From the IMG/VR virus record IMGVR_UViG_3300013104_000026, positions 1 through 60,931 of that record: a stretch of DNA of 60,931 bases. One strand, written 5' to 3'. The translations under genes were made by a program, and so were the position numbers. Origin of the DNA: a virus. Positions 353 to 59,067 of the stretch are shown here, piece by piece. The notes beneath the pieces are model-generated. The model was not told where the DNA came from and ran no database searches. It saw only the letters and a list, made by a program, of their open reading frames with translations. The number at the start of each line of letters is the position of its first letter. The stretch's first letter is position 1.

Positions 353-2551
353 CTATACGTCGAACAGAGTAGCTTGGTTTTTGAGAAGAACTGCGCTTTT
401 TACATTCTTCTTAGCCAGGTCGAAATAAGATTCTTTCAACTCAAACCCAATTCCTTTTCTACCCATTTGAACAGCCTTGAAAACCTCACTTCCAATACCC
501 ATAAATGGGGTAAGTATCGTATCTCCTTTGTTGCTGTATAAGTGGATTAATCTTTCAATCGTATCCAGCTGCAAGGGGGCAATGTGCTTTTCATCATTTT
601 GATCGCGGCCGTCTCTGTATCCTTGAAGCGTTTTCCCATAATTAATATCCATCCAAACCGGAGATGCATATTTTTGCCATAAATCAACTGGTAGATCGGT
701 ATTGGTCACTGGGTTTGATCGGTCGCCATCCTTTCTGAATATCATGACATAATCAGGTATTCCTACACGGCTCATTGTACTGTCCTTTTTTACCTGCTTA
801 TGAAGTAGTCCAAGTGCCTTTGTTCTTTGCATTTCAACGACAGGGTCTTTCCAAATCGTAACCCTTGAATGGTAAATAAATCCAGCACTTTCGAAGGATT
901 CCCGGATCATGCCGGAAAAGTCTCGCAGGCCTATAAAACCTTCCTTCCCTTTTTGAATTGGAATATCCATGCAGTGTACTGCTACATTTCTACCCTGCAT
1001 CAAAACCCTGTAAAGCTGTTCAACCAAGAATGAGAATTGAAGTAGAAACTCTTTGTAATCCTTAGAATTGCCCATATCCTCAACATGGTTGCTATATGTG
1101 TATAATTCAGCAAAAGGAGGAGAGAATACAGACAGGCCAACACTTTCACTTTTGACAGACTCAATTAATTGTACACAATCACCTCTTTTAATCGTATACC
1201 ACTCGTTTGACTCTTCAATGACATCATAATTCGCATATTGAATAATATCGCCATTCATGTCGCTATTTACAGCATCACTCATTTCCTTTTGCATGATTTC
1301 AAACTGTTTTTGTTTAGTGTTGATGGATTGAACTACATTGGCCATTGTATCCGTAGTAATCAAATAAATATTAACAGGCCTTATTTGTCCAAATCGGTAG
1401 GATCTCCTCATTGCCTGGTAAAGAGCTTCGAAGCTAAAATCAAGTGACGCAAATATTTGATTTGCACAGTTTTGATAATTCATTCCGAATGACGCAACCT
1501 TCGTTTTTGTAATCAGGATACGAAATTCATTTTCCGCAAAACCTAGTAAATGCTTTTCCTTCCACTCATTACTATCAGCCCCTTTGACTTCAATAGCTTC
1601 CGGTAATAATTTTCTAAGTAGATCACCTTCCTCATTATGCTTAATCCAGATAATGAAACTTTCTTCCGGCTTCGAATTGATGATATCAACAACCTGATCG
1701 ATTCTTTCTATTTTGGTCAATCTTAGTTCGTTATTGAAATTGGTTGCCGATATCGCAGTATTATTAAACAATCGTCCGTTATCCCTTTTAGGGGTAATAA
1801 TCTTTTTCTCAATCAAGTTGAGGCTCGGCAAATCATAACCTTCCATTGGGAATCCAATATCTGACGGATTATTAAGCATGATAGCCCATGACGCAACAAA
1901 CCGATAGAATAACTTAGTTGCGTGACCTTTTAATCTCCATTTTGCAGTCTCTCCACCATCATGAACAAAGTACATGGCAAGCATTTCATTTCTTGACATC
2001 ACATCTAAAAACTCACTGTGATTACCAAGTTCCATAGGATCATTGGGCGATGGTGTCGCCGTACAAGCTAATTTATATGGAGTGTCCTTGAATTTTTCAA
2101 TAATCAACTTCTTTGTAGCTCCTTCGTAGTTTTTTAGGATACTTGACTCATCAAGGATAATCCCAGAATAGATAGAGCAATCAATATTGTCAATCTGCTC
2201 GTAATTATTAATGTGAATATCGCTGATGTCAATTCCAAACTTGAAGGCCTCTTTAATAGTTTGAGCCTTTACTGCCAGCGGTGCAAGGATTAGAACAGGA
2301 AGCCCAGTACGCTTTCTGACCTGATCAGCCCAAGAAAGCTGCTGTATTGTTTTTCCAAGTCCACAGTCTTCAAAAAATGCATACTTTCCAGCCTTCAAAG
2401 CTCGTTGGACGCAGAATTTCTGAAACGGGAATAAGCTACTATTTAATTCATTTTGATCAACATCGAATCCTGAAAAAACAACGGATCTTTGCTTGGATTT
2501 AAGGCATTCAATATACGCCTCCTTTCGGTCGAGGATAAGGGTATCCGACAT
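353..2551 (-). CDS. SNF2-like helicase fused to a DNA methyltransferase
   Basis: A 732-residue two-part protein. Residues about 40-420 form a superfamily 2 helicase/translocase: Walker A GLGKT (64-68), motif II DESS (134-137), motif III TATPSPN (164-170) and motif VI QAMRRSYRFGQ (379-389). Residues about 450-732 form an amino (N4-C or N6-A) methyltransferase: catalytic SPPF (477-480) and, near the C-terminus, the cofactor-binding stretch TPFMGIGSEVFKA followed by GFELKESYFDLA. The permuted order (SPPF before the FxGxG motif) is usual for the beta class. It probably modifies phage DNA while translocating on it. The fusion is a familiar early gene in phages. The leader contains the shared ACTTCATCAAC motif (2562-2571 on the opposite strand). 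Target specificity cannot be read. Confidence 0.93.
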   Translation of the reverse strand: MSDTLILDRKEAYIECLKSKQRSVVFSGFDVDQNELNSSLFPFQKFCVQRALKAGKYAFFEDCGLGKTIQQLSWADQVRKRTGLPVLILAPLAVKAQTIKEAFKFGIDISDIHINNYEQIDNIDCSIYSGIILDESSILKNYEGATKKLIIEKFKDTPYKLACTATPSPNDPMELGNHSEFLDVMSRNEMLAMYFVHDGGETAKWRLKGHATKLFYRFVASWAIMLNNPSDIGFPMEGYDLPSLNLIEKKIITPKRDNGRLFNNTAISATNFNNELRLTKIERIDQVVDIINSKPEESFIIWIKHNEEGDLLRKLLPEAIEVKGADSNEWKEKHLLGFAENEFRILITKTKVASFGMNYQNCANQIFASLDFSFEALYQAMRRSYRFGQIRPVNIYLITTDTMANVVQSINTKQKQFEIMQKEMSDAVNSDMNGDIIQYANYDVIEESNEWYTIKRGDCVQLIESVKSESVGLSVFSPPFAELYTYSNHVEDMGNSKDYKEFLLQFSFLVEQLYRVLMQGRNVAVHCMDIPIQKGKEGFIGLRDFSGMIRESFESAGFIYHSRVTIWKDPVVEMQRTKALGLLHKQVKKDSTMSRVGIPDYVMIFRKDGDRSNPVTNTDLPVDLWQKYASPVWMDINYGKTLQGYRDGRDQNDEKHIAPLQLDTIERLIHLYSNKGDTILTPFMGIGSEVFKAVQMGRKGIGFELKESYFDLAKKNVKSAVLLKNQATLFDV

Positions 2552-2587: not shown

Positions 2588-2896
2588 TCAGGTAAACTTG
2601 ATACCCTTTCCATCGGGTTTTATTGTCGTTGTAAATGGGAAGTCATCCGGTTTGAGTGCCGCCATTATTTTCTGAATCGTTTTAGATCCGGAGAATAAAA
2701 CATGCTTTACTCCTGCGATTGAAATTTGCAGATGCGTGCAAACCGGATTCTTTCCGTTGAACTTGGATGGTTCGTTTTTAAAACCATGTATTGAAATAAG
2801 GACGTTGAGTACATCACTCATTTGAACTTTGTTTCCTTCCATTCTGGCTGTTTCAACCTGAACATTGAGGTCTTTGAATGATCTTACTTCTTTCAT
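2588..2896 (-). CDS. Small unrecognised early protein
   Basis: A 102-residue protein whose start overlaps the 3' end of the reverse transcriptase by 44 bp, so the two are translationally close. It has no membrane segment. The C-terminal half (HLQISIAGVKHVLFSGSK, then a conserved-looking FPFTTTI) suggests a small beta-rich domain followed by a helix, a pattern seen in small phage single-strand DNA-binding or recombination accessory proteins, but I do not recognise the family. Because it directly follows the RT, it is a candidate DGR accessory protein, although it does not resemble the helical Avd protein of Bordetella phage. Confidence 0.6.
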   Translation of the reverse strand: MKEVRSFKDLNVQVETARMEGNKVQMSDVLNVLISIHGFKNEPSKFNGKNPVCTHLQISIAGVKHVLFSGSKTIQKIMAALKPDDFPFTTTIKPDGKGIKFT

Positions 2897-3853
2897 GAGA
2901 GGGTAATTTTAATTTTTTGAGTAAATTTTTACAATCAGCATGCTTAGCCCATCCTTCATATGCTGCAATTGATGAGCGACCTTTTCTTTTTGCTATCGCC
3001 CTGGCAAAATTCTTTTTAATGGACTTTCGAAGCTTTGTGTATTCATGCCGGTATACATACCCCAGGAAATCTATACCTCTTTTGTCTACCGGGAATATTT
3101 GATAATTGTCCTTTACTGTTAAATGCAGTTCTATATCCAGGTAAAGTCTGATGTCGGAAAGAACCTGATGCAGATAAGGCTTTGACTCGGACAAAACAAC
3201 CATATCATCACAGTACCGGAAATAATACTTAACCTTTAATTGCTCCTTTATCCAATGATCAAAATAAGTCATGTAAAGATTCGCAAGTAACTGGCTGAGG
3301 TAATTCCAATCGGTAGACCTTCGGCGCTGTCAATGATCGAATCTAGCAGCGTTAACAGGTCATTATCTTTGATTTTAAACCGGATAATCTTTTTGATAAT
3401 CTCATGATCAATACTTGGATAAAACTTTCGAACATCAATTTTAAGACAGTACTCAGTTCCTTCAACATCTGACCGTAAGGTTTCCTTGATCTTTTCACCA
3501 GCGTAATGAACACCGCGTCCTTTAATGCAACTGTACGTATCTGATGTAAAAAGTGGCACCCATATTGGTTCAAGTATATTCATTATTGCATGGTGGACGA
3601 TACGGTCCGGAAAATAGGGTAACCGGTATATCTCCCGACGCTTCGGTTCAAAAATCGTGAACGTTTTGTATGCTGAGGTAATGAATGTTTTACTGGTCAA
3701 CATTTCATGCAACGAATTGATATTCTCTTCCCGGTTTTTCAAGTGATCCTGAACGCCTTTTTGATGCGATTTACTTCTGCTTGCATTTTGGTCAGCTACT
3801 GTTAAGTTTTCGATGCTGCATATTTTAGAATAAAGATTATTATGTCGTTTCAT
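2853..3853 (-). CDS. DGR reverse transcriptase, interrupted by an apparent 1-nt deletion
   Basis: Copies the template-repeat RNA into mutagenised cDNA in diversity-generating retroelements. The 5' frame runs from 3853 to the stop at 3269 and holds the N-terminal RT region, motif A LKIDVRKFYPSID and the start of the DGR signature GLPIG. The 3' frame (open from about 3300 to 2853) holds the rest of that signature, YLSQLLANLYMTYFD, then catalytic FRYCDDMVVL (YxDD) and the thumb-like DFLGYVYR. An IGxxxSQ motif, rather than QGxxxSP, is the hallmark of DGR enzymes. At 3301-3306 the coding strand reads GGAATTACC; one extra A (GGAAATTACC) would restore GLPIGNYLSQ in one frame. No good -1 slippery heptamer is visible, so this is a real mutation or a sequencing error. 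Restored length is about 331 residues, normal for the family. It lies next to the template repeat and first two targets. Confidence 0.93.
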
Positions 3854-3970
3854 AGCCTATGTTTTTCGAGTCATCTTCGCTTTCGCTACCAAAGCCCCTT
3901 AAAAAGTAGAAAGGTCATTTTTTGCCATGTTGGCAAGGTCTGCGCTGCCAAAAGATTTTTATTGACATAT

Positions 3971-4041
3971 GTGGGCCTCGACGTTCGATTTCGAGTTGTC
4001 GTTGTTGCAATCGTTAAACGAAAAACTGGAACTACCTGCGG
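3971..4041 (-). repeat. DGR template repeat (TR)
   Basis: A 71-bp non-coding segment between the RT start (3853) and the stop of the first target gene (4066), read on the minus strand. It is colinear with three 71-bp variable repeats without gaps. Its 20 adenines are the only positions that differ in any variable repeat (16, 15 and 16 differences). Five AAC codons and one AAA codon lie in the register of the targets, the usual DGR design that makes adenine mutagenesis change residues without creating stops. Homology ends sharply at both borders. In the spacer towards the RT is the inverted repeat TTGCCA TGT TGGCAA, a possible RNA structure. Confidence 0.96.
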
Positions 4042-4065
4042 TCAGCAGCGCACAACCTTAATTTT

Positions 4066-4542
4066 TTATTCGGTCTGAACTATCTCGTAAAGATCTAGGA
4101 ACTGTTTCCCGGCATATGCCGCAGTCTTTTCATCCTTGAAAGTTCGGCGGGCCCCGACGAACGAACTCGAGCAGTCGCGGCTGCAATCGCCAAACGAAAA
4201 ACCGGAACCACCCGCGGATTCGTCCTTGTAGAAATATGGGTAATAGCCTTTTTTCCCGAACTCCCATGTCCATCCTTCATTTAGGACTCTTCTGATAACT
4301 ACTAATTTATGATCAGCAAATGCGTAAGCCTGTTCAACCGATGGCAGGTGAGAAAAGTTATACAATGACAATGGTTTAATACCTTCAATCTCGCATGCGT
4401 CCTCATAACTTGTAACCATCTCTGTGATATTATCGACCAGAACCTTTTTGCCGAACAGCTTCAATAGTGTTTTCTTGATATCTGGCGTGGCATCTTTGTA
4501 TGCTTCCTTTGCTGCCTGAACACTTATTTCCACTTTACTCAT
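4066..4542 (-). CDS. DGR variable protein 1
   Basis: A 158-residue target of the retroelement. The conserved frame shared with the other two targets is: an acidic stretch (SYEDACEIEGIKP, about 45-57), a LNEGW-type segment (88-92), a YYPYFY aromatic cluster, the variable repeat (about residues 109-132), then a common tail (FKDEKTAAYAGKQFLDLY). In the variable core the template's D-C-N-N-D-N becomes D-C-S-R-D-C. The fixed AGGSGFSF and VGAR flanks probably form the scaffold. There is no signal peptide, membrane segment or tail-fibre context, so an intracellular ligand is likely. Its start overlaps the stop of variable protein 2 by ATGA. Similar short proteins are, from memory, common in Bacteroidota prophages; their binding partners are unknown to me. 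Confidence 0.93.
   Translation of the reverse strand: MSKVEISVQAAKEAYKDATPDIKKTLLKLFGKKVLVDNITEMVTSYEDACEIEGIKPLSLYNFSHLPSVEQAYAFADHKLVVIRRVLNEGWTWEFGKKGYYPYFYKDESAGGSGFSFGDCSRDCSSSFVGARRTFKDEKTAAYAGKQFLDLYEIVQTE
4147..4217 (-). repeat. DGR variable repeat 1
   Basis: A 71-bp copy of the template at 3971-4041 inside variable protein 1. It has sixteen differences, all at template adenines (A to G, T or C). Its 3' end, GTCGGGGCCCGC on the coding strand, is GC-only for its last eleven bases, as expected for the initiation-of-mutagenic-homing (IMH) site; the template has GTCGAGGCCCAC (IMH*). Confidence 0.95.
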
Positions 4543-5057
4543 GATCTCAATGGCTTTAAAAAACGGTTGTAGATTGATTCAAACTTCTTTCCAGCATATT
4601 CAGCATGATCCCGGAGTTTAAAAGTGTGGCGGGCCCCGACGACCGAAAGCGAGTAGACGTCGTCGCAATCGTAAAACGAAAAACCGGAACCACCCGCGGC
4701 CTCTTCGTTCCAGATATGATATGGCCAGTATTTGAAAGTTCCATCTGTGTAGTCGGGAGTCCACCAATTTCCTGAATCATCTTTTCCATTCAATGCCCGT
4801 GCGATAATGTCAATTTGGTGCGAGGCAAAAATTGAATCCTGATCTTCCCTTGGAAATAAATGAAAGTCTTCCAGCTTTAAAGGATCAATACCTACCTCCT
4901 CGCAAGCAGCTTCATAGCTATCAATTCTTTCAACCAATCTTCTTTCAAAATTGAAATCCGGATACATCTCCTTCATCCACTCTCGTTTTGACTTACTTGC
5001 CTTTTGATATGCAGCACGTGCATTGGTTTCAGTCAGTGTTAATAGTTTGTCTGCCAT
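4539..5057 (-). CDS. DGR variable protein 2
   Basis: A 172-residue paralogue of variable protein 1, immediately upstream and overlapping it by 4 nt. It shares SYEAACEEVGIDP, ALNGKDDSGNWWTPDY, the fixed AGGSGFSF and VGAR flanks, and the tail HAEYAGKKFESIY. The variable core reads YDCDDVYSLSV where the template encodes NDCNNDNSKSN. There is no signal peptide. Differences outside the variable repeat are much greater than those inside its scaffold, so the two genes are old duplicates kept together. The leader CACTTCAAAAACAACAAAAT matches the phage's common A-rich leader. Confidence 0.92.
   Translation of the reverse strand: MADKLLTLTETNARAAYQKASKSKREWMKEMYPDFNFERRLVERIDSYEAACEEVGIDPLKLEDFHLFPREDQDSIFASHQIDIIARALNGKDDSGNWWTPDYTDGTFKYWPYHIWNEEAAGGSGFSFYDCDDVYSLSVVGARHTFKLRDHAEYAGKKFESIYNRFLKPLRS
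4629..4699 (-). repeat. DGR variable repeat 2
   Basis: A 71-bp variable repeat inside variable protein 2. It has fifteen differences from the template, all at adenines. The IMH-like end is identical to those of repeats 1 and 3. Confidence 0.95.
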
Positions 5058-5082
5058 TATTTTGTTGTTTTTGAAGTGATTA

Positions 5083-5622
5083 TTAGATTACTGATATCAG
5101 ATCCTTTACTCCTGATCTTGAATTTGAAATAATGATCAGGTACATAGCGTCCCGTATTTCGTCGTTTATCCTCGACTGAACACCGGAATTCATTTCTATA
5201 AATTTCCTTCCGATAACAGTCCAGCATCCTTTCTTCTTGAATAATCCTTTTACTAGCGGTTTCTTTTCGATTACAGACCATCCAATACCTTGAAGTACTT
5301 CTGATATCATCTTCGCAACTGCGTGGTTCTGACCTACTTTTTTTGAGATTGAATCAGATACTCTTTTACTGAATGACCCTTTTCGAAAGTTCGCTTTTTT
5401 GTTAAGCCAGGGAGCTTCGAGGATTATTTCAGCCGTTGCCTCATCACAGAACTGTTTGATGATTGGAGCTATTTCAATGAAGGGCACAGCACACCAATAA
5501 ATAAATTTCTTCTGCTGCACATCCCAGATTGCTATTCCTGTTTTTTTTAGGTCTGGGTCTATTCCGACAATGTGAGTTATTATTCGTTCAGGTTTTACTT
5601 CCTGCATTACACCTCCTTTCAT
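5083..5622 (-). CDS. RuvC-like Holliday junction nuclease
   Basis: A 179-residue RNase H-fold protein. The first strand VGIDPDLKKTGIAIWD (near residues 19-34) carries the first catalytic Asp; IILEAPW (about 66-72) supplies the Glu of the second site; and the C-terminal NDEIRDAMYL gives the last acidic pair. It probably resolves branched DNA during replication or before packaging. Two starts are possible. ATG 5622 follows the A-rich leader CTAAAAC used by other genes here. ATG 5607 follows GGAGGTGTA, a textbook Shine-Dalgarno site, but such sites are rarely used in Bacteroidota, so 5622 is preferred. It lies between dnaB and the DGR targets. Confidence 0.82.
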   Translation of the reverse strand: MKGGVMQEVKPERIITHIVGIDPDLKKTGIAIWDVQQKKFIYWCAVPFIEIAPIIKQFCDEATAEIILEAPWLNKKANFRKGSFSKRVSDSISKKVGQNHAVAKMISEVLQGIGWSVIEKKPLVKGLFKKKGCWTVIGRKFIEMNSGVQSRINDEIRDAMYLIIISNSRSGVKDLISVI

Positions 5623-5657
5623 GTTTTAGATTGTTTTCGTAAGATTAGACAAGGCAT

Positions 5658-7163
5658 TTAAAATGGTGGTTCTTCGGTTAGTCTCTGAAATACTGTATTC
5701 CTCGAATGGTTATAAGCTACCTCAGCTGAAACTTCGGTATTAGATGGCGGTTTTTCTGGTGGCGCAGATCCAAAATCGCAATAGTCTGAAAACCTGTTTG
5801 TCCCCAAGTCCGCGTACCTGTCAACTCTACACACATCACCATCTCTGTTTTTTAAAATGTAATAGCAGTATGCTTTATCCGGGAAAGGCACTTCGGTGTC
5901 TTCAAGCTCGTCAAATATCTTCATCCCTTGCCGCAGGTAGTAGGTTGGATTAAAAAGCCCAATTACGATACTTCCATCTTGCTCAACTTGTCCAGAGTCT
6001 TTTAGATCTGCAAGCTTCGGTCTTGGATCTCCCCGGCCCTCTGAATTCCTATTTAACTGAGCCAGTGCAATAATTGGAATTTTCAGGTTTCTCTGCATCG
6101 ACTTTACTGCTTTACTGACCATCGTTACCCGTTCGGTAGACCCTAAATTTCCGCTACCTATTTCCAGATACTGGATATAATCAATGATTAGTAGCCCGAT
6201 GTTTTTCGTTCGCCTCCATTCAGTTGCCACCGCTTCAAGTCTTCGTACATCTTTGATTGAAACGTCATCAAAATAGTAAATAGGCAATTTTGATATTTCT
6301 CCCAAAGCGCTCTCAATCCGTATCCATTCCTGATCGCTGATGTCACCACTCCGTATCCTTTTGTATGGAATCAAAGTATAATTAGCAGCCAATCTGTATT
6401 TTAGTTGCTTAGCTGGCATTTCCATGGATAAAAAACCAACTGGAACGCCCCCCCTGGCTGAGGAAAGAGCAAAGTCCATGGCAGCGGCTGTCTTTCCCAT
6501 TGCCGTTCTGGCTGCAAGAATAATCAATTGGTCTTCCTGCCACCCACCGATCAATTCATCCAGTTTTTTACTACCCGTAGGCACTCCGGCTAATTTGCCA
6601 GACCTTCTAAGCTTCATGCTTTTATCAATTGACTCCAATGCTTCCATTGCTGCATCTTTTGAAGTCTTCTCCAAATTCCCGCCACCGGATAATGTGATAG
6701 CCTCGTATGTTCTGTAAATCAAGTCAGCTACCTGAGCATCGTTTCCCGGGTTTAATAGCTCGATATTCAGCTCCTGATTTAAGGAATTAGCCTTTTGTTT
6801 TCTGTACAGGGATAAAATACCTTCTGATGTATCAATAACTTCCCTGACTGACCTTGGGACCATTTCATCATAACTCAAAGAAATCTTTTCTGTTTTGATG
6901 AGGCTAAACTGGCCCTTTGATCGTAATCTCTGAAATACAGATAAGCTTTTAATTTCAGCCCGTTCATGATAGAGCTCCTGTATTGTTTGGTAGATTACCC
7001 TTGTCGGTTCATCCTGAAAGACTTCATCATTTGGAATCATCTTTAATACAGTCCCTATATTCTCCGGCCACAAGACAAGCGACGTTACCAGCATTCTTTC
7101 CGCCCAGACATCCGAATATTCATTTCGGAAGGATCCAGTGTCCTTCTTTTTTAAGTTTGTCAT
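5658..7163 (-). CDS. dnaB: Replicative DNA helicase DnaB
   Basis: A 501-residue hexameric helicase with the full family plan. The N-terminal helical domain (about 15-160) includes AERMLVTSLVLWPE. A linker leads to the RecA-like core with PTGSKKLDELIGGW, Walker A ARTAMGKT (218-225), FLSMEMP, Walker B LLIIDYIQYLE (about 330), and ALAQLNRNSEGRGDPRPKL followed by DLKDSGQVEQDGS. It drives replication-fork unwinding of phage DNA. It follows a DUF4373-like protein that may play the loader role. Its 5' end overlaps the upstream 76-residue gene by 44 bp. Confidence 0.96.
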   Translation of the reverse strand: MTNLKKKDTGSFRNEYSDVWAERMLVTSLVLWPENIGTVLKMIPNDEVFQDEPTRVIYQTIQELYHERAEIKSLSVFQRLRSKGQFSLIKTEKISLSYDEMVPRSVREVIDTSEGILSLYRKQKANSLNQELNIELLNPGNDAQVADLIYRTYEAITLSGGGNLEKTSKDAAMEALESIDKSMKLRRSGKLAGVPTGSKKLDELIGGWQEDQLIILAARTAMGKTAAAMDFALSSARGGVPVGFLSMEMPAKQLKYRLAANYTLIPYKRIRSGDISDQEWIRIESALGEISKLPIYYFDDVSIKDVRRLEAVATEWRRTKNIGLLIIDYIQYLEIGSGNLGSTERVTMVSKAVKSMQRNLKIPIIALAQLNRNSEGRGDPRPKLADLKDSGQVEQDGSIVIGLFNPTYYLRQGMKIFDELEDTEVPFPDKAYCYYILKNRDGDVCRVDRYADLGTNRFSDYCDFGSAPPEKPPSNTEVSAEVAYNHSRNTVFQRLTEEPPF

Positions 7164-7350
7164 AACGAGTTAACATTCGAGTAGCTTGTTCTTCTTCTAT
7201 CTGACCTTCGATCAAAAGTTCCAGCGTAGTTCCTATTAGATCATCAATGGATGGCTGAGGGTAGTTGTTTTTGTTTAAACTAACCGTTGATATTAGCTTC
7301 CCAGAATATTCCGTACTTCGCCATGGTGTTTGATAAATAATTTCGCTCAT
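7120..7350 (-). CDS. Small early protein between replication genes
   Basis: A 76-residue, soluble, unrecognised protein. The C-terminal half (IDDLIGTTLELLIEGQIEEEQATRMLTRYDKLKKEG) is predicted to be helical and acidic. It overlaps the upstream DUF4373-like gene by 4 nt and dnaB by 44 bp, so coupled translation and a replication role are likely but not shown. Confidence 0.7.
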   Translation of the reverse strand: MSEIIYQTPWRSTEYSGKLISTVSLNKNNYPQPSIDDLIGTTLELLIEGQIEEEQATRMLTRYDKLKKEGHWILPK

Positions 7351-8111
7351 ATCTTCTGCATTCTAAATTGTGACGGAACCGGTCCAGTTTTAGGACTCGA
7401 TGCTGATTTTGATAAATTCCCTTCATGTCTTTTTCGAACCCAATTCATAAAATGACTTTTTGTTTTCGAGTAACCCTCCGGAACTTTATCTTCAACAATT
7501 TTCTCAGAGATGAACTGTGATATATATTCCAGACACTCTTCTTCGGTGATGCTATTTGATTTTCGAACAGTGTCAATAAGCAATTGGCTTGCTTTCAATT
7601 CAATCTCGATCTCTCTGAATTTTGATTCTATACTCAAAGGGTCAATTTGAACCTCTTTTTTTTTCGAAAATTCAACATCATCTATATTGTTGTTTTCCTT
7701 TTCTTTTCTTTCCTTTTCTTTATTAGCATTGGGTTCGCTTTGCGATTGCAATGCGTTCGCATTATTCTGTTCCTTACTCCATCGTTTAAGTGCTGATTTA
7801 GAGGCTTTTTCAGATCTTGTCTTTCGATCGTCCAATCGTCTTTGAACAGAGTCTGAACTTATAACATCGTCACTAATATTGAAAAGTCCGAAGTCATTAA
7901 GTATGCTGCTTACTACACTTGCATCAACTTGCAAACCATATGCTATGCTATCGCAATCCAATTGCATTGCATTCGCATTAATATAAAGGTCTTCGATTAG
8001 TGACCAGAATATTCCTAAACCTAACATCCCATGTTTATACAATAACCTTTTCACTTTTGGGTCTGACCTGGTATTGTAATCGTGCGAGAAATAAAACGTA
8101 TCCTTACTCAT
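7347..8111 (-). CDS. DUF4373-like replication initiation/organiser protein
   Basis: A 254-residue protein. The N-terminus (DTFYFSHDYNTRSDPKVKRLLYKHGMLGLGIFWSLIEDLY) is the characteristic start of the Lin1244/Lin1753-type N-terminal domain (DUF4373) found in phage replisome organisers; a winged-helix fold is expected at about 1-95. It is followed by a lysine- and arginine-rich region with the low-complexity stretch NANALQSQSEPNANKEKE and a run of KE residues (about 115-140), then a C-terminal DnaD-like helical domain (about 155-240, ending FMNWVRKR). It probably binds the origin and recruits DnaB, encoded two genes downstream. Iterons were not found by eye. Confidence 0.82.
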   Translation of the reverse strand: MSKDTFYFSHDYNTRSDPKVKRLLYKHGMLGLGIFWSLIEDLYINANAMQLDCDSIAYGLQVDASVVSSILNDFGLFNISDDVISSDSVQRRLDDRKTRSEKASKSALKRWSKEQNNANALQSQSEPNANKEKERKEKENNNIDDVEFSKKKEVQIDPLSIESKFREIEIELKASQLLIDTVRKSNSITEEECLEYISQFISEKIVEDKVPEGYSKTKSHFMNWVRKRHEGNLSKSASSPKTGPVPSQFRMQKI

Positions 8112-8560
8112 GTTGTATCGGCACTTGCCGCGTTTCTCCGTATTCTTAATCCCTGTTCTTCTGCTTCCGTAATTCCAAGTTGATCATGAATCTTCGCGTG
8201 ACAGGATCTACATATGGCCATCCAAGTTTCTACATCCAAAAGAAAAGCTCCGCGGCCTGCCAGGTGATGAAGTTCGGTAGCGTCCTTGGTACATCCGGAT
8301 AAACCTGCTTCACACTTCAATCTTGATTTTAGAAACAACTTTCGGGTCTTAGCGTATTCCACGTTGAGGGTCTTCTGTTTATCAGATACCTTTTTGATTG
8401 AAGGCGGATTCTTTCGAAGCAGATCCTGTTTTTCTTTCTTCCTTTGCTGAGCCAGTAAATAAGATCGGTCAGTTCTGAGTGATTGGTGTTTTTGTGTTTT
8501 ACAATACCCACCTCCCCATGCTGCGTTCAGGCATCCTTCGGCCTTACAAGTCTTCGGCAT
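8108..8560 (-). CDS. Zinc-finger/HNH-like DNA-binding nuclease (NinG-like)
   Basis: A 150-residue protein from the preferred start MPKTCKAEGC. An N-terminal zinc knuckle (CKAEGC...GYC..QKH) is followed by a basic helical linker and a C-terminal HNH-like ββα-metal core: CEAGLSGC, TELHHLAGRG, then CRSCHAKIHDQ. The layout resembles NinG/Rap-type junction nucleases of lambdoid phages, but identity is not secure. The longer frame begins at 8590 inside the upstream gene; the internal ATG at 8560 is chosen because the zinc knuckle starts there and the overlap becomes short (17 bp). Confidence 0.75.
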   Translation of the reverse strand: MPKTCKAEGCLNAAWGGGYCKTQKHQSLRTDRSYLLAQQRKKEKQDLLRKNPPSIKKVSDKQKTLNVEYAKTRKLFLKSRLKCEAGLSGCTKDATELHHLAGRGAFLLDVETWMAICRSCHAKIHDQLGITEAEEQGLRIRRNAASADTT

Positions 8561-8759
8561 GATCTTCTGGAATAATACATCCGTTATCATCCATCATTGG
8601 TGCTCGTCTTAATTCATAAATAAGCCAAACTATTGTGCAGAACATCACAAACAACAATGTGTAGAAAAAGCAAAGTATAAAAAAATGAAACAAATTATCG
8701 ATTGGATTAACTGGCAGGTCAGAATACATAGCAGTAAGTTGTTTATTTGATGAAATCAA
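8544..8759 (-). CDS. Small single-pass membrane protein
   Basis: A 71-residue protein with one strong transmembrane segment (about residues 23-47, HFFILCFFYTLLFVMFCTIVWL) followed by a short acidic tail. It overlaps its neighbours on both sides. Function unknown; small inner-membrane proteins in early operons can act in exclusion or host takeover. Confidence 0.65.
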   Translation of the reverse strand: MISSNKQLTAMYSDLPVNPIDNLFHFFILCFFYTLLFVMFCTIVWLIYELRRAPMMDDNGCIIPEDHAEDL

Positions 8760-9042
8760 TATTTGAAAAAGGAATTTGTGTTCTTACGCCTGGGATAGTT
8801 TCAATCATTACGTAATCTTGAAGATTAGGATAATTGACAGTTGATGTTGTTCTTTCTGAATTAACTTTCAATATTCCAATGAAAGTCCCCAGGTGATTTA
8901 AAGGAGGCGCTTCCAGTTCTTCGGCTTTGTGGAGCCAAAACCAAGGCCGGCTCTGTTTCTTCTGTGATGTGGAGACAATAACCGTATCGCCAAGGCGTAA
9001 CTTACCCCACGGTGTTTCCACCATATTATTTTGCTTTGACAT
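8743..9042 (-). CDS. Unrecognised 99-residue early protein
   Basis: Soluble, beta-rich, with a possible SH3-like start (WGKLRLGDTVIVSTS) and several Trp/Pro-rich turns. It overlaps the downstream membrane-protein gene by 17 bp. The leader TACCTCATCAAA is a variant of the shared leader motif. Confidence 0.65.
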   Translation of the reverse strand: MSKQNNMVETPWGKLRLGDTVIVSTSQKKQSRPWFWLHKAEELEAPPLNHLGTFIGILKVNSERTTSTVNYPNLQDYVMIETIPGVRTQIPFSNIDFIK

Positions 9043-9091
9043 TTTGATGAGGTATTAAGAGATTGTTCTATTTATGAGATGAAGTGTAATT

Positions 9092-9116
9092 TGACACGTT
9101 TTTGATATCTGTGTCA
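9092..9116. repeat. Inverted repeat TGACAC...GTGTCA in an intergenic gap
   Basis: Two 6-bp arms separated by 13 bp lie in the 106-bp gap between the HTH gene (ends 9149) and the next gene (starts 9042), one of few true gaps in the early operon. The arm spacing suits a dimeric regulator; no T-run follows, so a terminator is less likely. Confidence 0.4.
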
Positions 9117-9148
9117 TAATTTAATGTGATAACGGTTTTAATTATACG

Positions 9149-9496
9149 CTAACCTAATTCTATGTTCTTTTTTTTGATAAGATCCTTTATCATTTCAGTC
9201 GAAGCTCTTCTATACGGTTGATTTTTTAACCACTCAATCTCTGATAGTAAAAACCTATTGGTAATTTTAGTGTCGGAATCTCTCGTTGATAAAAGGCCGT
9301 CCCGGATCCAATCATAGATTACAGGAGCAGTTACGTTTAGGATTCTTTGAACCTCTGTTGAGTTAATGTATCGCTCATCAGTACATTTAGGTTTTTTAAT
9401 AGATTCCTCAGCTTCCTGAATTCGGTTTTCCAAGTGTTGTTTAAGAAGATCGTTTTGCTTCGTAATAAAGGTTTTCAATTCTTCAATCTCAGACAT
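9149..9496 (-). CDS. HTH (excisionase/MerR-like) DNA-binding protein
   Basis: A 115-residue protein with an N-terminal coiled coil (about 1-35, EELKTFITKQNDLLKQHLE) and a helix-turn-helix of the excisionase type (about 43-95: YINSTEVQRILNVTAPVIYDWIRDGLL, then the wing and FLLSEIEWL). It could be the excisionase, or a regulator of the early operon. The integrase lies across the regulatory region on the same strand. Confidence 0.72.
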   Translation of the reverse strand: MSEIEELKTFITKQNDLLKQHLENRIQEAEESIKKPKCTDERYINSTEVQRILNVTAPVIYDWIRDGLLSTRDSDTKITNRFLLSEIEWLKNQPYRRASTEMIKDLIKKKNIELG

Positions 9497-9497
9497 A

Positions 9498-9659
9498 TCA
9501 ATCAGAGTTTAGTTGTTTCCTTTTTAGATAAATGATCACAGCCAAGAAGGCGATGAGGAGAAAAACCAACTTCCAGTTTATCATATCCCACCAGTAATCA
9601 ATTGATTCCATTAAGCCAGCTGTTAATATGAATGCCGGCAGTGCGATGATCTTTGACAT
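9498..9659 (-). CDS. 53-residue membrane protein
   Basis: A short frame ATG 9659 to TGA 9498: an amphipathic start, then a hydrophobic segment (WKLVFLLIAFLAVIIYLKRK, about 29-48) ending in a positive cluster. It fits exactly between the genes ending 9663 and starting 9496, with 1-3 bp gaps, which supports it being real. Function unknown. Confidence 0.7.
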   Translation of the reverse strand: MSKIIALPAFILTAGLMESIDYWWDMINWKLVFLLIAFLAVIIYLKRKQLNSD

Positions 9660-9662
9660 GGG

Positions 9663-9917
9663 TTAGGCTGGTTGAGGGGTGGATGGTTTCCTTTTCAATT
9701 TTCTATCATCCCAGTTTTTAACTTCTCGAATCATACGGTAAACTGTTTCGTATGCGTGAATTTTGGTGCCGCATATCTCTTCTGACCTTTTTACGATGTC
9801 GTCAACAGCTGCTCTTGATTTTGTCCCGAGATTTGTTAGTCGAATGAATTCATCCCTAACCTTTCGATACTTAGTTTGTTGAACAGTCTGGAAGCTTGTT
9901 AGTGGTATCTCTTCCAT
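9663..9917 (-). CDS. Small basic early protein, possible HTH
   Basis: An 84-residue, helical protein (VQQTKYRKVRDEFIRLTNLG ... ICGTKIHAYETVYRMIREV) with a basic C-terminus KLKRKPSTPQPA. The helical pattern could form a helix-turn-helix, but no family is recognised. It lies between the antirepressor block and the HTH protein. Confidence 0.65.
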   Translation of the reverse strand: MEEIPLTSFQTVQQTKYRKVRDEFIRLTNLGTKSRAAVDDIVKRSEEICGTKIHAYETVYRMIREVKNWDDRKLKRKPSTPQPA

Positions 9918-9941
9918 TTTTAAATGTTTGTTGGTGAATAC

Positions 9942-10154
9942 TTAATTGGATTTTTTAACAAGATCAAATCTTGTTTTTGTGTTTGAGAGAAACCTGCCGT
10001 CAGTCATATAGCCTTCACCAGACTCATCAAAAAATTTATATAATCCCAATGGGTTATAAGAAACTATCTTTTTAATTTCAGGTGCGAATTTTCTGTTTCC
10101 TCTGGTCTCATATTCGCACCCTACTTTTAAAGTAATTGGGGATTCAAAATTCAT
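9942..10154 (-). CDS. Unrecognised 70-residue early protein
   Basis: A small beta-rich protein with alternating charged residues and no membrane segment. It overlaps the antirepressor stop by 4 nt, so it is probably translated from the same message. Confidence 0.6.
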   Translation of the reverse strand: MNFESPITLKVGCEYETRGNRKFAPEIKKIVSYNPLGLYKFFDESGEGYMTDGRFLSNTKTRFDLVKKSN

Positions 10155-10855
10155 CTCTGAGACCCATATTTATTAGCCAGAAAAACCTGACCTTTTGGTG
10201 TTATTTGGGTTTGGCTAAATAACTTCACCTTATCCTCGGTTTTTTTTACCACCTCCTTCACGATGAATAAGCCTTGGTCGATATATTTCTGATATGGAAG
10301 GTTCCGTTTCCCGCCATCTGGAATTAGATATTTATCTTTTCTCAGTTCTTCAAAAAGTTTATTCTGACCGGTTCCGATTGTTTTAGCAAATTCTCCTATG
10401 TTAACCATATCATCAGACATTAATAGAATTTCCGCTGCATCTGACTTAGGTTTCATCTCTGATATTAGTATTTGCTGCTTTTCTATTTGTTCTGCCTGAT
10501 TTGCAGCAAGTCTTAATGCCTCAGAAAACGATGTTGGTATTTGATACGATGATATATCTTTTAGTTTTTTTTCGCACGATATAAAATATTGCCTTGCTAT
10601 CTTACCTTTTTTATTACCTTCTACCATGGCAATTTCTTTGGCGGTATCAATAGTTAAAGCATATTCTATTCTATTTGCACGCTCCACTATTTTGTGGAAC
10701 GTCAAATAATCTTCACCATCGACAAATCCATACTTCTCAATTCTGCTTTTAATCCATGTTGAAAAGTCTCTTTTATTCTCTAAAAAAATATGAAGATCCC
10801 TTGCCGATACAACCTGTCTGTTTTTAGTGTCATGAATTTTAATTAAGTCTTCCAT
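10151..10855 (-). CDS. AntA-type phage antirepressor with KilA-C-like C-terminus
   Basis: A 234-residue protein. The N-terminal AntA/AntB domain is clear (VVSARDLHIFLENKRDFSTW, DGEDYLTFHKI, and YALTIDTAKEIAMVEGNKKG, residues about 14-85). After a coiled linker the C-terminal ANT/KilA-C domain is seen (DMVNIGEFAKTIGTGQNKLFEELR, then NLPYQKYIDQGLF). Such proteins counter CI-type repressors to trigger lytic growth. It is the second gene after the leftward promoter, facing the repressor, which fits that job. Confidence 0.9.
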   Translation of the reverse strand: MEDLIKIHDTKNRQVVSARDLHIFLENKRDFSTWIKSRIEKYGFVDGEDYLTFHKIVERANRIEYALTIDTAKEIAMVEGNKKGKIARQYFISCEKKLKDISSYQIPTSFSEALRLAANQAEQIEKQQILISEMKPKSDAAEILLMSDDMVNIGEFAKTIGTGQNKLFEELRKDKYLIPDGGKRNLPYQKYIDQGLFIVKEVVKKTEDKVKLFSQTQITPKGQVFLANKYGSQR

Positions 10856-10876
10856 GATTGTTCGGGTTATAATTGA

Positions 10877-11281
10877 TTAACCTTTTACTTCTTGCTGAGG
10901 AATAACCATCCATCCGGCAGCCAACTCTCTAAACTTCTCAGCGAAGTACTTGGCTCTGGGCCGATCCCGAAAAACGAGGCGGGCCCCGACGCTCGAAACC
11001 GAGCCGTCGCCGCTGCAACCGTGAAACGAAAAACCGGAACCACCCGCGGCTTCGCTTCGCATCCACCACCAATTCTCATACTTGTAATCGTTGGTGTCGA
11101 AATTAGGAATCCAAGGAGTGCCATCCTCATCGGCATTAATGGCTTCTGTTACGATTACAGTTTTAGCCCAAGCATTAACTGCTAACTGACGATCATTTTT
11201 AGGAGAAACATAAGGAATCTCTTCTTCTGGGATATATCCTCTAAAAGCGCAGGCATCTTCAAATGTTGTAATGTTATTCAT
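10877..11281 (-). CDS. DGR variable protein 3 (first gene of the early operon)
   Basis: A 134-residue third target, about 6.3 kb upstream of the next variable gene. It shares TFEDACAFRGYIPEE, a YENWWWM aromatic cluster, AGGSGFSF, VGAR and a related tail (AKYFAEKFREL). The variable core HGCSGDGSVSS replaces the template's NDCNNDNSKSN. There is no signal peptide. As the first gene after the lytic promoter and directly before the antirepressor, it should be expressed earliest on induction or infection. That position suggests a role in host takeover, counter-defence or superinfection control rather than adsorption (inference). Confidence 0.92.
   Translation of the reverse strand: MNNITTFEDACAFRGYIPEEEIPYVSPKNDRQLAVNAWAKTVIVTEAINADEDGTPWIPNFDTNDYKYENWWWMRSEAAGGSGFSFHGCSGDGSVSSVGARLVFRDRPRAKYFAEKFRELAAGWMVIPQQEVKG
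10979..11049 (-). repeat. DGR variable repeat 3 (remote)
   Basis: A 71-bp variable repeat with sixteen differences from the template at 3971-4041, every one at a template adenine. It is about 7 kb from the template, so homing must act at a distance. The flanking fixed bases and IMH-like end are identical to those of repeats 1 and 2. Confidence 0.95.
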
Positions 11282-24571: not shown

Positions 24572-25447
24572 ATGATCAAATTAGATATTTCAGATAATTT
24601 CGGAGTTTCCGACAAAATAACATGTTACGGAGATAGTCTTCTTGATGATACCGGCGGGACATCCCCTGCTACACTTTTAAAGCGGATGTTGCCATCCAGA
24701 CTCGTTTCCAAGTATGCTATTGGAGGCCAAAAAGCGGCTCAAATTGCATGCCGTCAAGGTGGAATTCAGATAAGGATATCACTTACTGGGGGAGTATTTA
24801 CGGCATTGACGCCAATCGTTTTAAGTTTCATTTCAACTCAGTTCCTTTCTACGGCAGCTACAAATGCGACTAAAACGGAGAAAGGAACAGTTAATGGTAT
24901 TCCCTGTACAATTACAAGAACTGCTACGGGCACCGCTCCTTCTCAGGTTGAAGTGTATACTATAACCCCTGCATTTTCAACTACTGATGCAGTTCCAGAT
25001 AATTCAATCTTTATTCCGGATTATGCAGTGAGTGCTATGTCTGACATTCAGGTACTTTGGATGGGTAGAAATGACGCTTCTGCATTAACAGGAGTTGATT
25101 TGATTGTAGATAATTGCATTGCTTTTATTGAGAAGCCGAGACGGGTAATCGTGGTAGGTGTTATCACTGCACTTGCGGAAATAACTGGCACAGCGAATTA
25201 TATTGCTATCCAGGCACACAATGCAAAGCTGAAAGCGGCATACCCATCCAATTACGTTGAGGGAACGCCACCAAGTGCTGATGAAATGGCAGAGCTTAGA
25301 TATACTCCAAGTGCTCAGGATATAATTGATTTAGGAAACAATGTTATTCCAACCGGGATGCGCTCAGACTCCCTGCACTTGAATACGGTGGGCTATCAAT
25401 TGTTTGCTAATCGAATTTACAAGAAAATTAAAGAGCTTAAATACTAG
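24572..25447 (+). CDS. SGNH/GDSL-type hydrolase
   Basis: A 291-residue protein. Block I ITCYGDSLLDDTGG (Ser21-22 region, GDS at 20-22), block III MGRND (about 165) and block V DSLHLNTVGYQLFANRIYKK (near the C-terminus) give the catalytic Ser, the Gly/Asn oxyanion site and the Asp-His pair. It lacks a signal peptide, unlike the phage's other SGNH enzyme at 54.8 kb. It probably deacetylates or cleaves host surface polysaccharide as part of the virion. Confidence 0.82.
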   Translation: MIKLDISDNFGVSDKITCYGDSLLDDTGGTSPATLLKRMLPSRLVSKYAIGGQKAAQIACRQGGIQIRISLTGGVFTALTPIVLSFISTQFLSTAATNATKTEKGTVNGIPCTITRTATGTAPSQVEVYTITPAFSTTDAVPDNSIFIPDYAVSAMSDIQVLWMGRNDASALTGVDLIVDNCIAFIEKPRRVIVVGVITALAEITGTANYIAIQAHNAKLKAAYPSNYVEGTPPSADEMAELRYTPSAQDIIDLGNNVIPTGMRSDSLHLNTVGYQLFANRIYKKIKELKY

Positions 25448-54344: not shown

Positions 54345-54826
54345 CAGAACTCACCCAAAACTTCACACTGGAAGAAATGATCCGTTCTGCAAATGCTTCC
54401 AGAATGGGATTCACAGAGCAGTTTAAACCTTCGAAAGAAGTAGTTGAAAATCTGACTGCTTTATGTGTAAATGTTTTACAGCCGCTGAGGACATTCATTA
54501 AGCAATCTATTTTTGTTAGTTCCGGATACCGGTGCGAGCGGCTTAATAACTCAATCAAAGGAGCCAAAGGATCTCAGCATCTAACCGGTGAAGCGGCCGA
54601 TATACAGGGTACGTTACAGATGAGCAATAAGGACCTATTTCAATTAGTGATATATTCCAAAGTCCCTTTTGATCAGTTGATCATTGAGTTTGAAGATGAG
54701 TTCGGAGAACCGGGATGGATTCACGTCTCTTACGCAAGAGATCGGCAGCGAGGGCAAATATTGAAGGCGTATAAAGATCAGGCAGGCAAAACAAAATATA
54801 TGGATGTAACCGGACATTATAAATGA
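54341..54826 (+). CDS. Endolysin, M15-type D-Ala peptidase
   Basis: A 161-residue peptidoglycan peptidase of the peptidase M15_3 type. Zinc ligands: His80 and Asp87 in GSQHLTGEAADI, and His128 in GWIHVSY. SSGYRCERLNNSIKGAKGS is the usual substrate-groove segment. No signal peptide, so release by a holin or another route is needed. It overlaps the neighbours on both sides by 4 nt. Confidence 0.92.
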   Translation: MTELTQNFTLEEMIRSANASRMGFTEQFKPSKEVVENLTALCVNVLQPLRTFIKQSIFVSSGYRCERLNNSIKGAKGSQHLTGEAADIQGTLQMSNKDLFQLVIYSKVPFDQLIIEFEDEFGEPGWIHVSYARDRQRGQILKAYKDQAGKTKYMDVTGHYK

Positions 54827-56025
54827 AAAAAATAACATCGCTTTTAATCGCTCTGCTTTTATCGTTATCAGGGTACGCACAGTTAAATAATTTACCCTCT
54901 GATCTTGGGACAATCCAGGCTTACAAAGAAAACTCACTGGATATCCCAATCCAGATTGATGCAGCCTGGACAATTCCAACTCCAGTGACTGCCGAGTTGA
55001 GGGATGGAGTAGGGATAAACCCTCCAAAGCTTACATCCATCACACCAACCGTTACAGTAGTCGGGCATTTGGTTACAGTCAAACTAACGGCTGCGCAGAT
55101 GACCAGGTTAACGCCGGGAAATTCTTACTCCTACCGGGTTAAATTCAACGGTGTTGCAAAACTTGGCGGAATAATCAGACCACAGCTTGGAACAGGAACG
55201 CCAAGCACAACGCCCTATGTGGTTAGTCTTCCTGATATTGGAGTTGTTAAAATTCAACTGATAGGAGATGCAGCTGCGGCCGCGCAATACCGCGATCAGG
55301 CCCGAGCGGCAAAAGATTCGCTGTCCGGCATTGTAAATAACAATCAATGGACCGGCAAGAAAATAATTTGGGTAGGAACCAGTATTCCTTGGCAGTATCA
55401 GCCAAATAGCTACCCAGAGCAGATAGCCCGGAAGTTAGGGGCGACGATATACAATAACAGTATTTCCGGATCTTCAATAACTTACTTCCCGCCTGCGTCA
55501 GGATTTGCAGGCAAGCCGGGGATGTCGGGCACATTCACGGAGAATATCGCTGCCAGTGCCGGACAGAATAATAGTTATCAGTACACGATCAATTACTTTC
55601 TATCCACTTTCGGAGCGGATTTGCTGGTTATTGATCACGGTACAAATGATGTTCCTTACATGCCTGACAGCCTAGGAGACATTAATTCAACCCGGAAGAG
55701 CCTTCTTTATGGTGCTTATAATCACATCATAACCAATGTTCTTACAACATACCCCAATTTAAAGATTGTGCTGTGTACTCCCCCAAATCGGTACACGTAT
55801 GGAGGCACAACGCAGACAGCCAAATATGAAGCCGTTGCAGGTGCGATAAAGGCACTTGGTAAAAAATGGTCTTTACCTGTTCTGGATTGGGGGGAGCTTG
55901 GAGGAATCAATATCTTAACCTCTCCGACAGGAAAGTTTACAACAGATGGACTGCATCCAACATCTACTTACACTAACAATGTCATGGTCCCGATAGGATA
56001 CCGGTTTCTTTTGCAAGTTCGCTAA
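54823..56025 (+). CDS. Secreted SGNH hydrolase with a BppU-like N-terminus
   Basis: A 400-residue protein with a signal peptide (about 1-20, MKKITSLLIALLLSLSGYAQ). An N-terminal strand-rich domain (about 25-145) resembles the BppU-like domain of the 23-kb protein, followed by a short helix and the SGNH domain: Ser187 in GTSIPW, Asn in NNSISGSS, HGTND (272-276) and DGLHPTSTY (about 378). It may deacetylate host surface sugar during release or entry. It is the last rightward gene. Confidence 0.83.
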   Translation: MKKITSLLIALLLSLSGYAQLNNLPSDLGTIQAYKENSLDIPIQIDAAWTIPTPVTAELRDGVGINPPKLTSITPTVTVVGHLVTVKLTAAQMTRLTPGNSYSYRVKFNGVAKLGGIIRPQLGTGTPSTTPYVVSLPDIGVVKIQLIGDAAAAAQYRDQARAAKDSLSGIVNNNQWTGKKIIWVGTSIPWQYQPNSYPEQIARKLGATIYNNSISGSSITYFPPASGFAGKPGMSGTFTENIAASAGQNNSYQYTINYFLSTFGADLLVIDHGTNDVPYMPDSLGDINSTRKSLLYGAYNHIITNVLTTYPNLKIVLCTPPNRYTYGGTTQTAKYEAVAGAIKALGKKWSLPVLDWGELGGINILTSPTGKFTTDGLHPTSTYTNNVMVPIGYRFLLQVR

Positions 56026-57717: not shown

Positions 57718-59067
57718 TTAAATTTTATTATTTGGGAAAAGCTTATTCCAAAGATCCCTAAATGCTAATTCTGAGGTTTGTTCAACAACTGAATTGCCAA
57801 TGGCACGGTGAAGATCTTCTGTAAAGTCGTACCCATCAATTGAATACTCCAAGCTGGATTGAGTTTTTGCTTTGATGATACGCTCAGTTTTTGACCATTC
57901 TTCCGTTCCCATAATTTTCTCAAAACCCTTCCTGCCCGTACGCCACAGCTTTCGTAAAGAATTTGGCAAGCGATTTGTCGGGCCGAATATTCTAGGCTCC
58001 TCCCATTCATATTGATGGCTTCCTTGTCCAGCTGGAAATCTGTCATTTTCCCTCTTACGACTGAATCTCTCAGATTCGAAAAGCTTGTTCGACCTGGACG
58101 GATCTCCGTCATTTCCCGACGGATGGCCTTGTCTGTCTTCGGATTCATTTGATCCATCGTTGTTGGTGTTGGACATTTCGTCACGTCTCGTGACAGGCTT
58201 GCATGTTTCCCACTCTTTCTCGAAATATTGTTCGTTTCGTCCGTGGTCGTTGTGAGCCATTTTTGAATCACCTGATCTTCGATACGGCCCTTTGGATTCT
58301 CTGGATTTGTTCCGTTCATCCCATTGGTGGATACTCGCGGTGTCCCCCACGATTGATGAACCACTTGGTTCGTCAATCGATCTAACCGACTCTTTCCATC
58401 CTTCCTCAATAATCCTAACTCCGACACTGCCCCCTTCCAAAGATTCGTATCCGGTGTTCCCCAATTCTTCACCTGCTCGGATAGTTTCGGACTGAAATCC
58501 TCCCTCGTTGTCCCTCCGTGATCCGTAGCCATTGGTGTCCTCCAAGATTGCGAGGATAAATAGTCTTTCTCTCTCATGTGTTGCGCCAACTTCCTCCGCT
58601 GTATAGATTCCAGCCTCAACTCGGTAACCCATATTTCGAAGGCTTTCTTGGACTTGCTGGAATCCCATTGAGAGATGTCCTGAGACGTTTTCGAAAAAAC
58701 AGCAAAAAGGTCGTATTGTGCCAATTGCCGATTCAATATAAGGGTATAAGTGTCTGGGGTCATCAGCTCCGACCCTGTTTCCGGCAAGTGAAAATGGCTG
58801 ACAAGGGTATCCGCCAAGTAGAATGTCAATTTTTCCTCGAAACGGTTCCGGATTGAAGGTTTTAAGATTCGTCCACACAGGTGCTGCATCCACCATACCC
58901 GACTCCATTGCTGACAAAAGGTTTTCCACGATGAAGGTTTCGATTTCCACATAAGCGGCAACTCTGACATCTCGAAATACTCTTTGCACTCCTCTTTCGA
59001 GTCCACGTATTCCTGGGCAAAGGCTGAGGATAACGGGTGATTGTTTGGTAATATCCACATAGGTCAT
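57718..59067 (-). CDS. C5-cytosine DNA methyltransferase
   Basis: A 449-residue enzyme. Motif I LSLCPGIRGLERGVQ (about 14-28), motif IV GGYPCQPFS (85-93, catalytic Cys89), motif VI FFENV (124-128), motif VIII HERERLFIL (164-172), and near the end motif X AIGNSVVEQTSELAFRDLW. It methylates cytosine in phage or host DNA, probably to evade restriction. Between motif VIII and the target-recognition part lies a long polar insert (about 175-400, rich in G, S, R, N, D) with repeats such as EDTNGYGS, GNTGYES and GDTASIHQ. This insert is also open in a second frame (see the overlapping ORF). Its start overlaps the dnaN stop by 4 nt. Confidence 0.93.
   Translation of the reverse strand: MTYVDITKQSPVILSLCPGIRGLERGVQRVFRDVRVAAYVEIETFIVENLLSAMESGMVDAAPVWTNLKTFNPEPFRGKIDILLGGYPCQPFSLAGNRVGADDPRHLYPYIESAIGTIRPFCCFFENVSGHLSMGFQQVQESLRNMGYRVEAGIYTAEEVGATHERERLFILAILEDTNGYGSRRDNEGGFQSETIRAGEELGNTGYESLEGGSVGVRIIEEGWKESVRSIDEPSGSSIVGDTASIHQWDERNKSRESKGPYRRSGDSKMAHNDHGRNEQYFEKEWETCKPVTRRDEMSNTNNDGSNESEDRQGHPSGNDGDPSRSNKLFESERFSRKRENDRFPAGQGSHQYEWEEPRIFGPTNRLPNSLRKLWRTGRKGFEKIMGTEEWSKTERIIKAKTQSSLEYSIDGYDFTEDLHRAIGNSVVEQTSELAFRDLWNKLFPNNKI
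57765..59060 (-). CDS. Overlapping out-of-frame ORF inside the methyltransferase (possible dual-coding)
   Basis: A 431-codon frame, open from ATG 59060 to 57765, almost the whole methyltransferase gene on the same strand. It contains repeated W/C-x-TP motifs: SWRTPMATDHGG (172-183), NWGTPDTN (199-206), SWGTPRVSTNG (237-247), KCPTPTTMD (296-304), then KLNPAW (399-404) and LMG (408-410). Each TP repeat lies opposite a DTNGYGS-type repeat of the methyltransferase. From memory, W-x-TP-x-A-x-D repeats and LNPxWVExLMG occur in proteins encoded with phage C5 methyltransferases, so this frame may be translated, or it may mark an ancestral frame shift. No dedicated leader is visible. Expression is unproven. 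Confidence 0.4.
   Translation of the reverse strand: MWILPNNHPLSSAFAQEYVDSKEECKEYFEMSELPLMWKSKPSSWKTFCQQWSRVWWMQHLCGRILKPSIRNRFEEKLTFYLADTLVSHFHLPETGSELMTPDTYTLILNRQLAQYDLFAVFSKTSQDISQWDSSKSKKAFEIWVTELRLESIQRRKLAQHMREKDYLSSQSWRTPMATDHGGTTREDFSPKLSEQVKNWGTPDTNLWKGAVSELGLLRKDGKSRLDRLTNQVVHQSWGTPRVSTNGMNGTNPENPKGRIEDQVIQKWLTTTTDETNNISRKSGKHASLSRDVTKCPTPTTMDQMNPKTDKAIRREMTEIRPGRTSFSNLRDSVVRGKMTDFQLDKEAINMNGRSLEYSARQIACQILYESCGVRAGRVLRKLWERKNGQKLSVSSKQKLNPAWSIQLMGTTLQKIFTVPLAIQLLNKPQN

Follow-up and report, generated by a model that had tools for sequence, protein, structure and literature searches.

How one template comes to serve three genes, and with what machinery, is the question raised by a locus in the window (the whole stretch of DNA that was analysed, 60,931 bases). 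A sequence-only reading of this DNA had proposed a complete diversity-generating retroelement (DGR) with one template (TR) and three variable repeats (VRs). The repeats and the genes that carry them are as follows:

3971..4041 (-), TR, with 20 adenines; the match to the VRs reaches about 3968-4043
4147..4217 (-), VR1, 16 adenine-only differences from TR
4629..4699 (-), VR2, 15 adenine-only differences from TR
10979..11049 (-), VR3, 16 adenine-only differences from TR
4066..4542 (-), target 1, 158 aa, phrog_11581 family
4539..5057 (-), target 2, 172 aa, with a four-base overlap with target 1
10877..11281 (-), target 3, 134 aa; its Dyadobacter counterpart lies at L084:4800-5174

The template aligns without gaps over 71 bp with each of the three VRs, and a recount gave the same 16, 15 and 16 differences as reported earlier, all 47 of them on the 20 adenines of TR and none on its other 51 bases. 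These adenines are A on the coding minus strand and appear as 20 T on the plus strand. The chance of such a placement arising at random over the 71 positions is 1.5e-12, 1.7e-11 and 1.5e-12 for the three TR-VR pairs. The AAC codons of TR lie in the right register: the template codes for AGSSSFSFNDCNNDNSKSNVEAH, the variable repeats code for AGGSGFSF...VGAR, and each VR is read in frame close to the 3' end of its target ORF, with about 26 to 35 residues remaining. In a wildcard scan of the entire window, carried out for each base and on both strands, these three TR/VR pairs alone were recovered, their matches extending to 73-75 bp. Within the 71 bp, 0 of 153 non-adenine comparisons between TR and VRs differ, and because the match at these sites is perfect we infer that transfer was recent. 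The adenine-only pattern, together with more than 100 relatives that share the kind of reverse transcriptase (RT) and the TR/VR organisation, thus bears out the proposed DGR with one template and three targets; the rule by which the relatives' TR/VR pairs were detected tolerated one non-adenine difference, so that those pairs do not constitute an unbiased test of adenine specificity.

As the targets are paralogues, one could also imagine that gene conversion among them keeps the repeats alike without any reverse transcriptase. Such exchange does not, however, restrict 47 of 47 differences to the adenines of one non-coding copy, and beyond the repeat itself the paralogues are only 34-37% identical to target 1 at the amino-acid level. 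We consider gene conversion extremely improbable, and continue with the reading of the locus as a DGR.

All three targets belong to a single paralogous family, phrog_11581 (67 members in our alignment), for which no Pfam or NCBIfam match was found at the thresholds used. Targets 1 and 2 are placed between a resolvase gene and TR, and target 3 between an antirepressor and a repressor gene. The structural model of target 1 is mostly helical and good outside the VR (pLDDT 88 overall), and of low confidence in the VR part (52-75 over about residues 101-130). It matches uncharacterised phage proteins only; against the PDB it gave no match at E<=0.001 and no recognised C-lectin fold, and since it is in the VR part that the model is poor, a C-lectin fold could still be present. 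In the work of Roux et al. (PMC8144416), every VR domain that could be annotated had a C-lectin fold, and the targets of viral DGRs were mainly tail proteins. Our best guess is that the targets are soluble binding proteins, acting in the virion or in the cell. Being small and outside the tail module, with one of them beside an antirepressor, they make one ask whether diversification in phages extends beyond receptor-binding proteins.

The RT gene, on the same strand, is represented by the following features:

3269..3853 (-), RT first part, to GLPIG; phrog_1423 E 2e-68, RVT_1
2853..3272 (-), in another frame, RT second part, with YCDD; phrog_1423 E 3.1e-39
3291..3319 (-), stretch of the frame change, inside the GLPIG..SQ motif

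The earlier account had an RT with readable IGxxxSQ and YCDD motifs adjacent to TR. The adjacency holds, with both halves matching phrog_1423, but the motifs are split over two ORFs: the first (3853-3269, 194 aa) has the C-terminal end GLPIGITSASYLRIFT followed by a stop, and the second (3272-2853, 139 aa) starts MTYFDHW and carries SQ and YCDD. Among 80 viral relatives, 79 have a single RT ORF with a GLPIG-type motif and YxDD, and NYLSQ nearly always follows the GLPIG-type motif. Because the reading frame is disrupted here within a motif of the catalytic core, which those 79 keep unbroken, calling the DGR complete is too strong for this record. The split weakens the claim that this copy works, and not the DGR identity of the locus; both halves match DGR RTs and otherwise keep the family sequence. 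A programmed frameshift was considered and rejected, being seen in no relative and accompanied by no obvious slippery site.

The break goes back either to a recent lesion or to a one-base error in the sequence. The former would suit a recently dead DGR, in which the frame change truly inactivated the RT and the three VRs are the last products, now frozen. The position of the change, in a core motif that nearly all relatives keep continuous, speaks for this, as do the other long ORFs of the record, which are intact, so that the record is not generally poor and errors in it appear to be uncommon. A long-dead element, on the other hand, would have drifted, whereas here the non-adenine positions of TR and VRs are still identical and the RT halves retain their family sequence, and the loss of one base is a frequent kind of sequence error as well. 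We regard a recently dead element as a real possibility, although at somewhat less than even odds, and our preferred reading of a DGR with three targets accommodates either origin of the break.

The gene next to the RT encodes a candidate partner protein:

2588..2896 (-), small basic accessory protein, 102 aa, phrog_19665, pI 9.7

Of 137 RT loci, 118 have a homologue of this protein in the neighbourhood of the RT; in most of them it either follows the RT directly or lies some 1.6 kb upstream of the RT end, and in many loci the two genes overlap. In the Bacteroides hankyphage p00 the domain constitutes residues 327-434 of the RT protein itself (E 4e-24), and a second RT-accessory fusion occurs at locus L021. 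The predicted secondary structure is strand-strand-strand-helix-strand-strand, an order of elements that resembles the OB fold, a barrel of five strands in which a helix separates strands 3 and 4; no PDB match was significant, the best having E values from 0.08 upwards, and an OB domain and HIN domains appeared only among these weak matches. Comparison of the accessory family with Avd gave no similarity, and the Avd models PF22296 and phrog_3206 had no match in the window or in 35 viral relatives, with both Bordetella (BPP-1) controls positive. These two models were used instead of PF05635, which misses the annotated BPP-1 Avd. A small ORF near the hankyphage RT has been described as Avd-like in size and charge (PMC6199706), the hankyphage locus has been credited with an Avd gene and its DGR reported to be active (PMC12135933), and one DGR-associated protein from an earlier survey was without Pfam and CDD entries (PMC10053308); this last protein may be the phrog_19665 family. 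For the crAssphage LMMB RT, a resemblance of its C-terminal tail to the accessory domain, suggested by eye, was not supported on comparison.

Around the template itself, three segments could be recognised as parts of a structured RNA:

4045..4057 (-), upstream arm of a helix bracketing TR
3937..3948 (-), downstream arm of the same helix
3922..3936 (-), second covarying hairpin, directly after the downstream arm

The flanks of TR are complementary, 4057-4045 before it pairing with 3948-3937 after it. In a structure-blind alignment of 32 short-TR relatives, this bracketing helix is what emerges as the consensus fold, with 12 pairs, 98.2% of cells paired and 10 of the 12 pairs changed on both sides. 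The whole structure, including the second hairpin, is 93.6% paired, compared to 33-44% when the partner is slid by 1-3 columns, and the observed pairing values were matched by 0 of 500 shuffles. Stems are better when an upstream arm is combined with the downstream arm of its own locus than with that of a foreign one, in the short-TR as well as in the long-TR group (permutation p 5e-5 each). By eye the layout of the long-TR group is alike, and an anchored arm test in this group, for which the anchor was partly wrong, lends weak support. It is the comparison of relatives that revealed the helix: a single RNA fold of the TR region did not, its stability not exceeding that of shuffles (z 0.6), and an Rfam scan of the window returned no match. 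Structured flanks are to be expected in a DGR, since the BPP-1 spacer after TR folds and recruits RT and Avd, according to PMC12875486, citing Handa 2025.

About 30 bases past the second hairpin, many long-TR loci have a conserved stretch around GGTGTTGGTAG, and the window carries GGCTTTGGTAG at this place; this stretch, too, may belong to the template RNA.

We consequently read the locus, with a probability of roughly 0.87, as a DGR of an Avd-less group in a temperate Bacteroidota phage, in which a helix-looped TR, an accessory-aided RT and misreading of A account for transfer into three targets. In the proposed mechanism, TR would be transcribed on the minus strand, and the RNA flanks would pair such that the helix, for which covariation is the evidence, might present TR as a loop. 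The RT would copy TR, probably with the help of the small basic accessory protein with which it is associated across loci, and would misread the adenines of TR, as is known for the RT of other DGRs. The resulting cDNA would replace the matching segment in any of the three small target genes, and selection would retain those target variants that work. For the present copy, the RT would either have been recently inactivated or be intact behind a one-base error in the record.

Five of the 20 TR adenines are G in all three VRs, and they fall in the codons for GSGF and VGxR, both conserved across the target family. Columns that are G throughout occur more often than expected in loci with two VRs and in loci with three (86 against 48.5 expected, and 19 against 6.5, respectively); all-A and all-T columns are also too frequent, which means that sites differ in general. 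The GSGF/VGxR codons are involved in most relatives, while counts of CAN to CGN in the VGxR motif vary with the search pattern and were excluded from the statistics. The fixed adenines could be due to protein selection, or could mark the template as against the target (IMH versus IMH*). Selection on the protein alone, which would require Gly and Arg and leave these adenines no part in distinguishing template from target, would fit their position in conserved codons, and also the finding that in about a third of the relatives TR already has G at these positions, so that A is not essential. Yet keeping an A where a G is needed should waste most copies, and most TRs still keep at least one such A; moreover, an A/G difference between IMH and IMH* has been reported for archaeal DGRs (PMC4372165). 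We see the odds on protein selection alone as evenly balanced.

Tentatively, and at marginally under even odds, the locus may stand for a distinct class of DGR, in which a small OB-like protein, either separate or fused to the RT, replaces Avd, a covarying helix loops TR, and adenines in codons that need G mark TR. The accessory gene, the TR helix and the five all-G adenines were absent from the sequence-only reading. To our knowledge, studies of the DGR mechanism rest mostly on BPP-1, a user of Avd. The Avd-less subfamily is common in Bacteroidota phages and has two parts that lend themselves to experiment, the accessory protein and the helix bracketing TR; with hankyphage as an active relative whose accessory domain is fused to the RT, both can be tested in existing strains.

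The DGR occupies part of the early region of a temperate phage, one that has a relative in a Dyadobacter prophage. Family matches in the window, which is an IMG/VR virus record, include an integrase, a divergent repressor, an AntA/KilAC antirepressor, DnaB, a RuvC-like resolvase and a helicase-methylase; reading by eye adds genes for terminase, portal, capsid and tail, the terminase and portal being similar to those of relatives. A tRNA search of the window found none. The antirepressor adjoins target 3:

10151..10855 (-), AntA/KilAC antirepressor

The nearest cellular relative is the prophage of Dyadobacter sp. CY261 (L084; RT 64%), from which a Bacteroidota host is likely. The prophage has the target family in common with the window, as well as the order integrase, repressor, target (immediately adjoining the repressor), two tandem targets, TR, RT and accessory gene, but differs in having the RT as one ORF and four VRs, the fourth behind the helicase-methylase gene. 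In several relatives (L009, L032, L057, L071 and L072) a cassette of like kind lies directly upstream of the terminase gene, showing that its genome position is not fixed.

Among known systems, the DGR of hankyphage p00 (BK010646; PMC6199706, PMC12135933) has the RT group in common with the window, a domain homologous to the product of 2588-2896, though RT-fused there, and adenine-only TR/VR differences, whereas its RT is intact with reported activity and its single VR, of 116 bp, lies in a tail-fibre gene of very large size whose product has a C-lectin domain. The crAssphage LMMB DGR (RT lineage 3, Wu et al., PMC7290462) is likewise without Avd and has the order target-TR-RT, its RT being about 50% identical to that of the window over the first 151 residues, but its lone target is a tail-collar fibre and the accessory family was not detected there. 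With the BPP-1 DGR (mtd / avd / TR / brt) the window shares adenine-specific TR-to-VR transfer and a DGR RT; BPP-1 differs in possessing Avd, a tail fibre target of the C-lectin fold, a hairpin after the VR, and IMH/IMH* differences that are not confined to adenines. In a search for a counterpart of the BPP-1 hairpin, which is GC-rich and has a 4-nt loop, no perfect stem of at least 6 bp turned up right after the VRs of the window, and the DNA folds are not clearly beyond those of shuffles. DGRs with multiple VRs (PMC3521204, PMC10743442) have two to four VRs per TR and paralogous targets, some of them remote, and the window differs from these by its small targets outside the tail module, one beside an antirepressor. 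Several VRs, remote VRs and the absence of Avd are thus all published (PMC3521204, PMC10743442, PMC7290462), and our literature search found no description of the accessory partner protein or of the helix bracketing TR. The parts that we consider worth following are the accessory family, the finding that it is fused to an active RT, and the helix around TR; papers beyond those searched may already describe them.

Several other genes of the window deserve mention. At 353-2551 (-), an SNF2/Helicase_C helicase is fused to an N4/N6 DNA methylase (732 aa); it is 74% identical to that of the Dyadobacter prophage, where the gene adjoins the fourth VR target. Two genes in or near the tail module, at 24572-25447 and 54823-56025 (+), look like SGNH/GDSL-type hydrolases, judging by sequence only. 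The overlapping ORFs at 57718-59067 and 57765-59060 (-), of 449 and 431 aa, are in different frames; the former looks like a C5 cytosine methylase and the latter is probably a shadow ORF. Finally, the 398-aa product of 59064-60260 (-) looks like a phage-encoded DNA polymerase sliding clamp, with a 26% relative in the Dyadobacter prophage.
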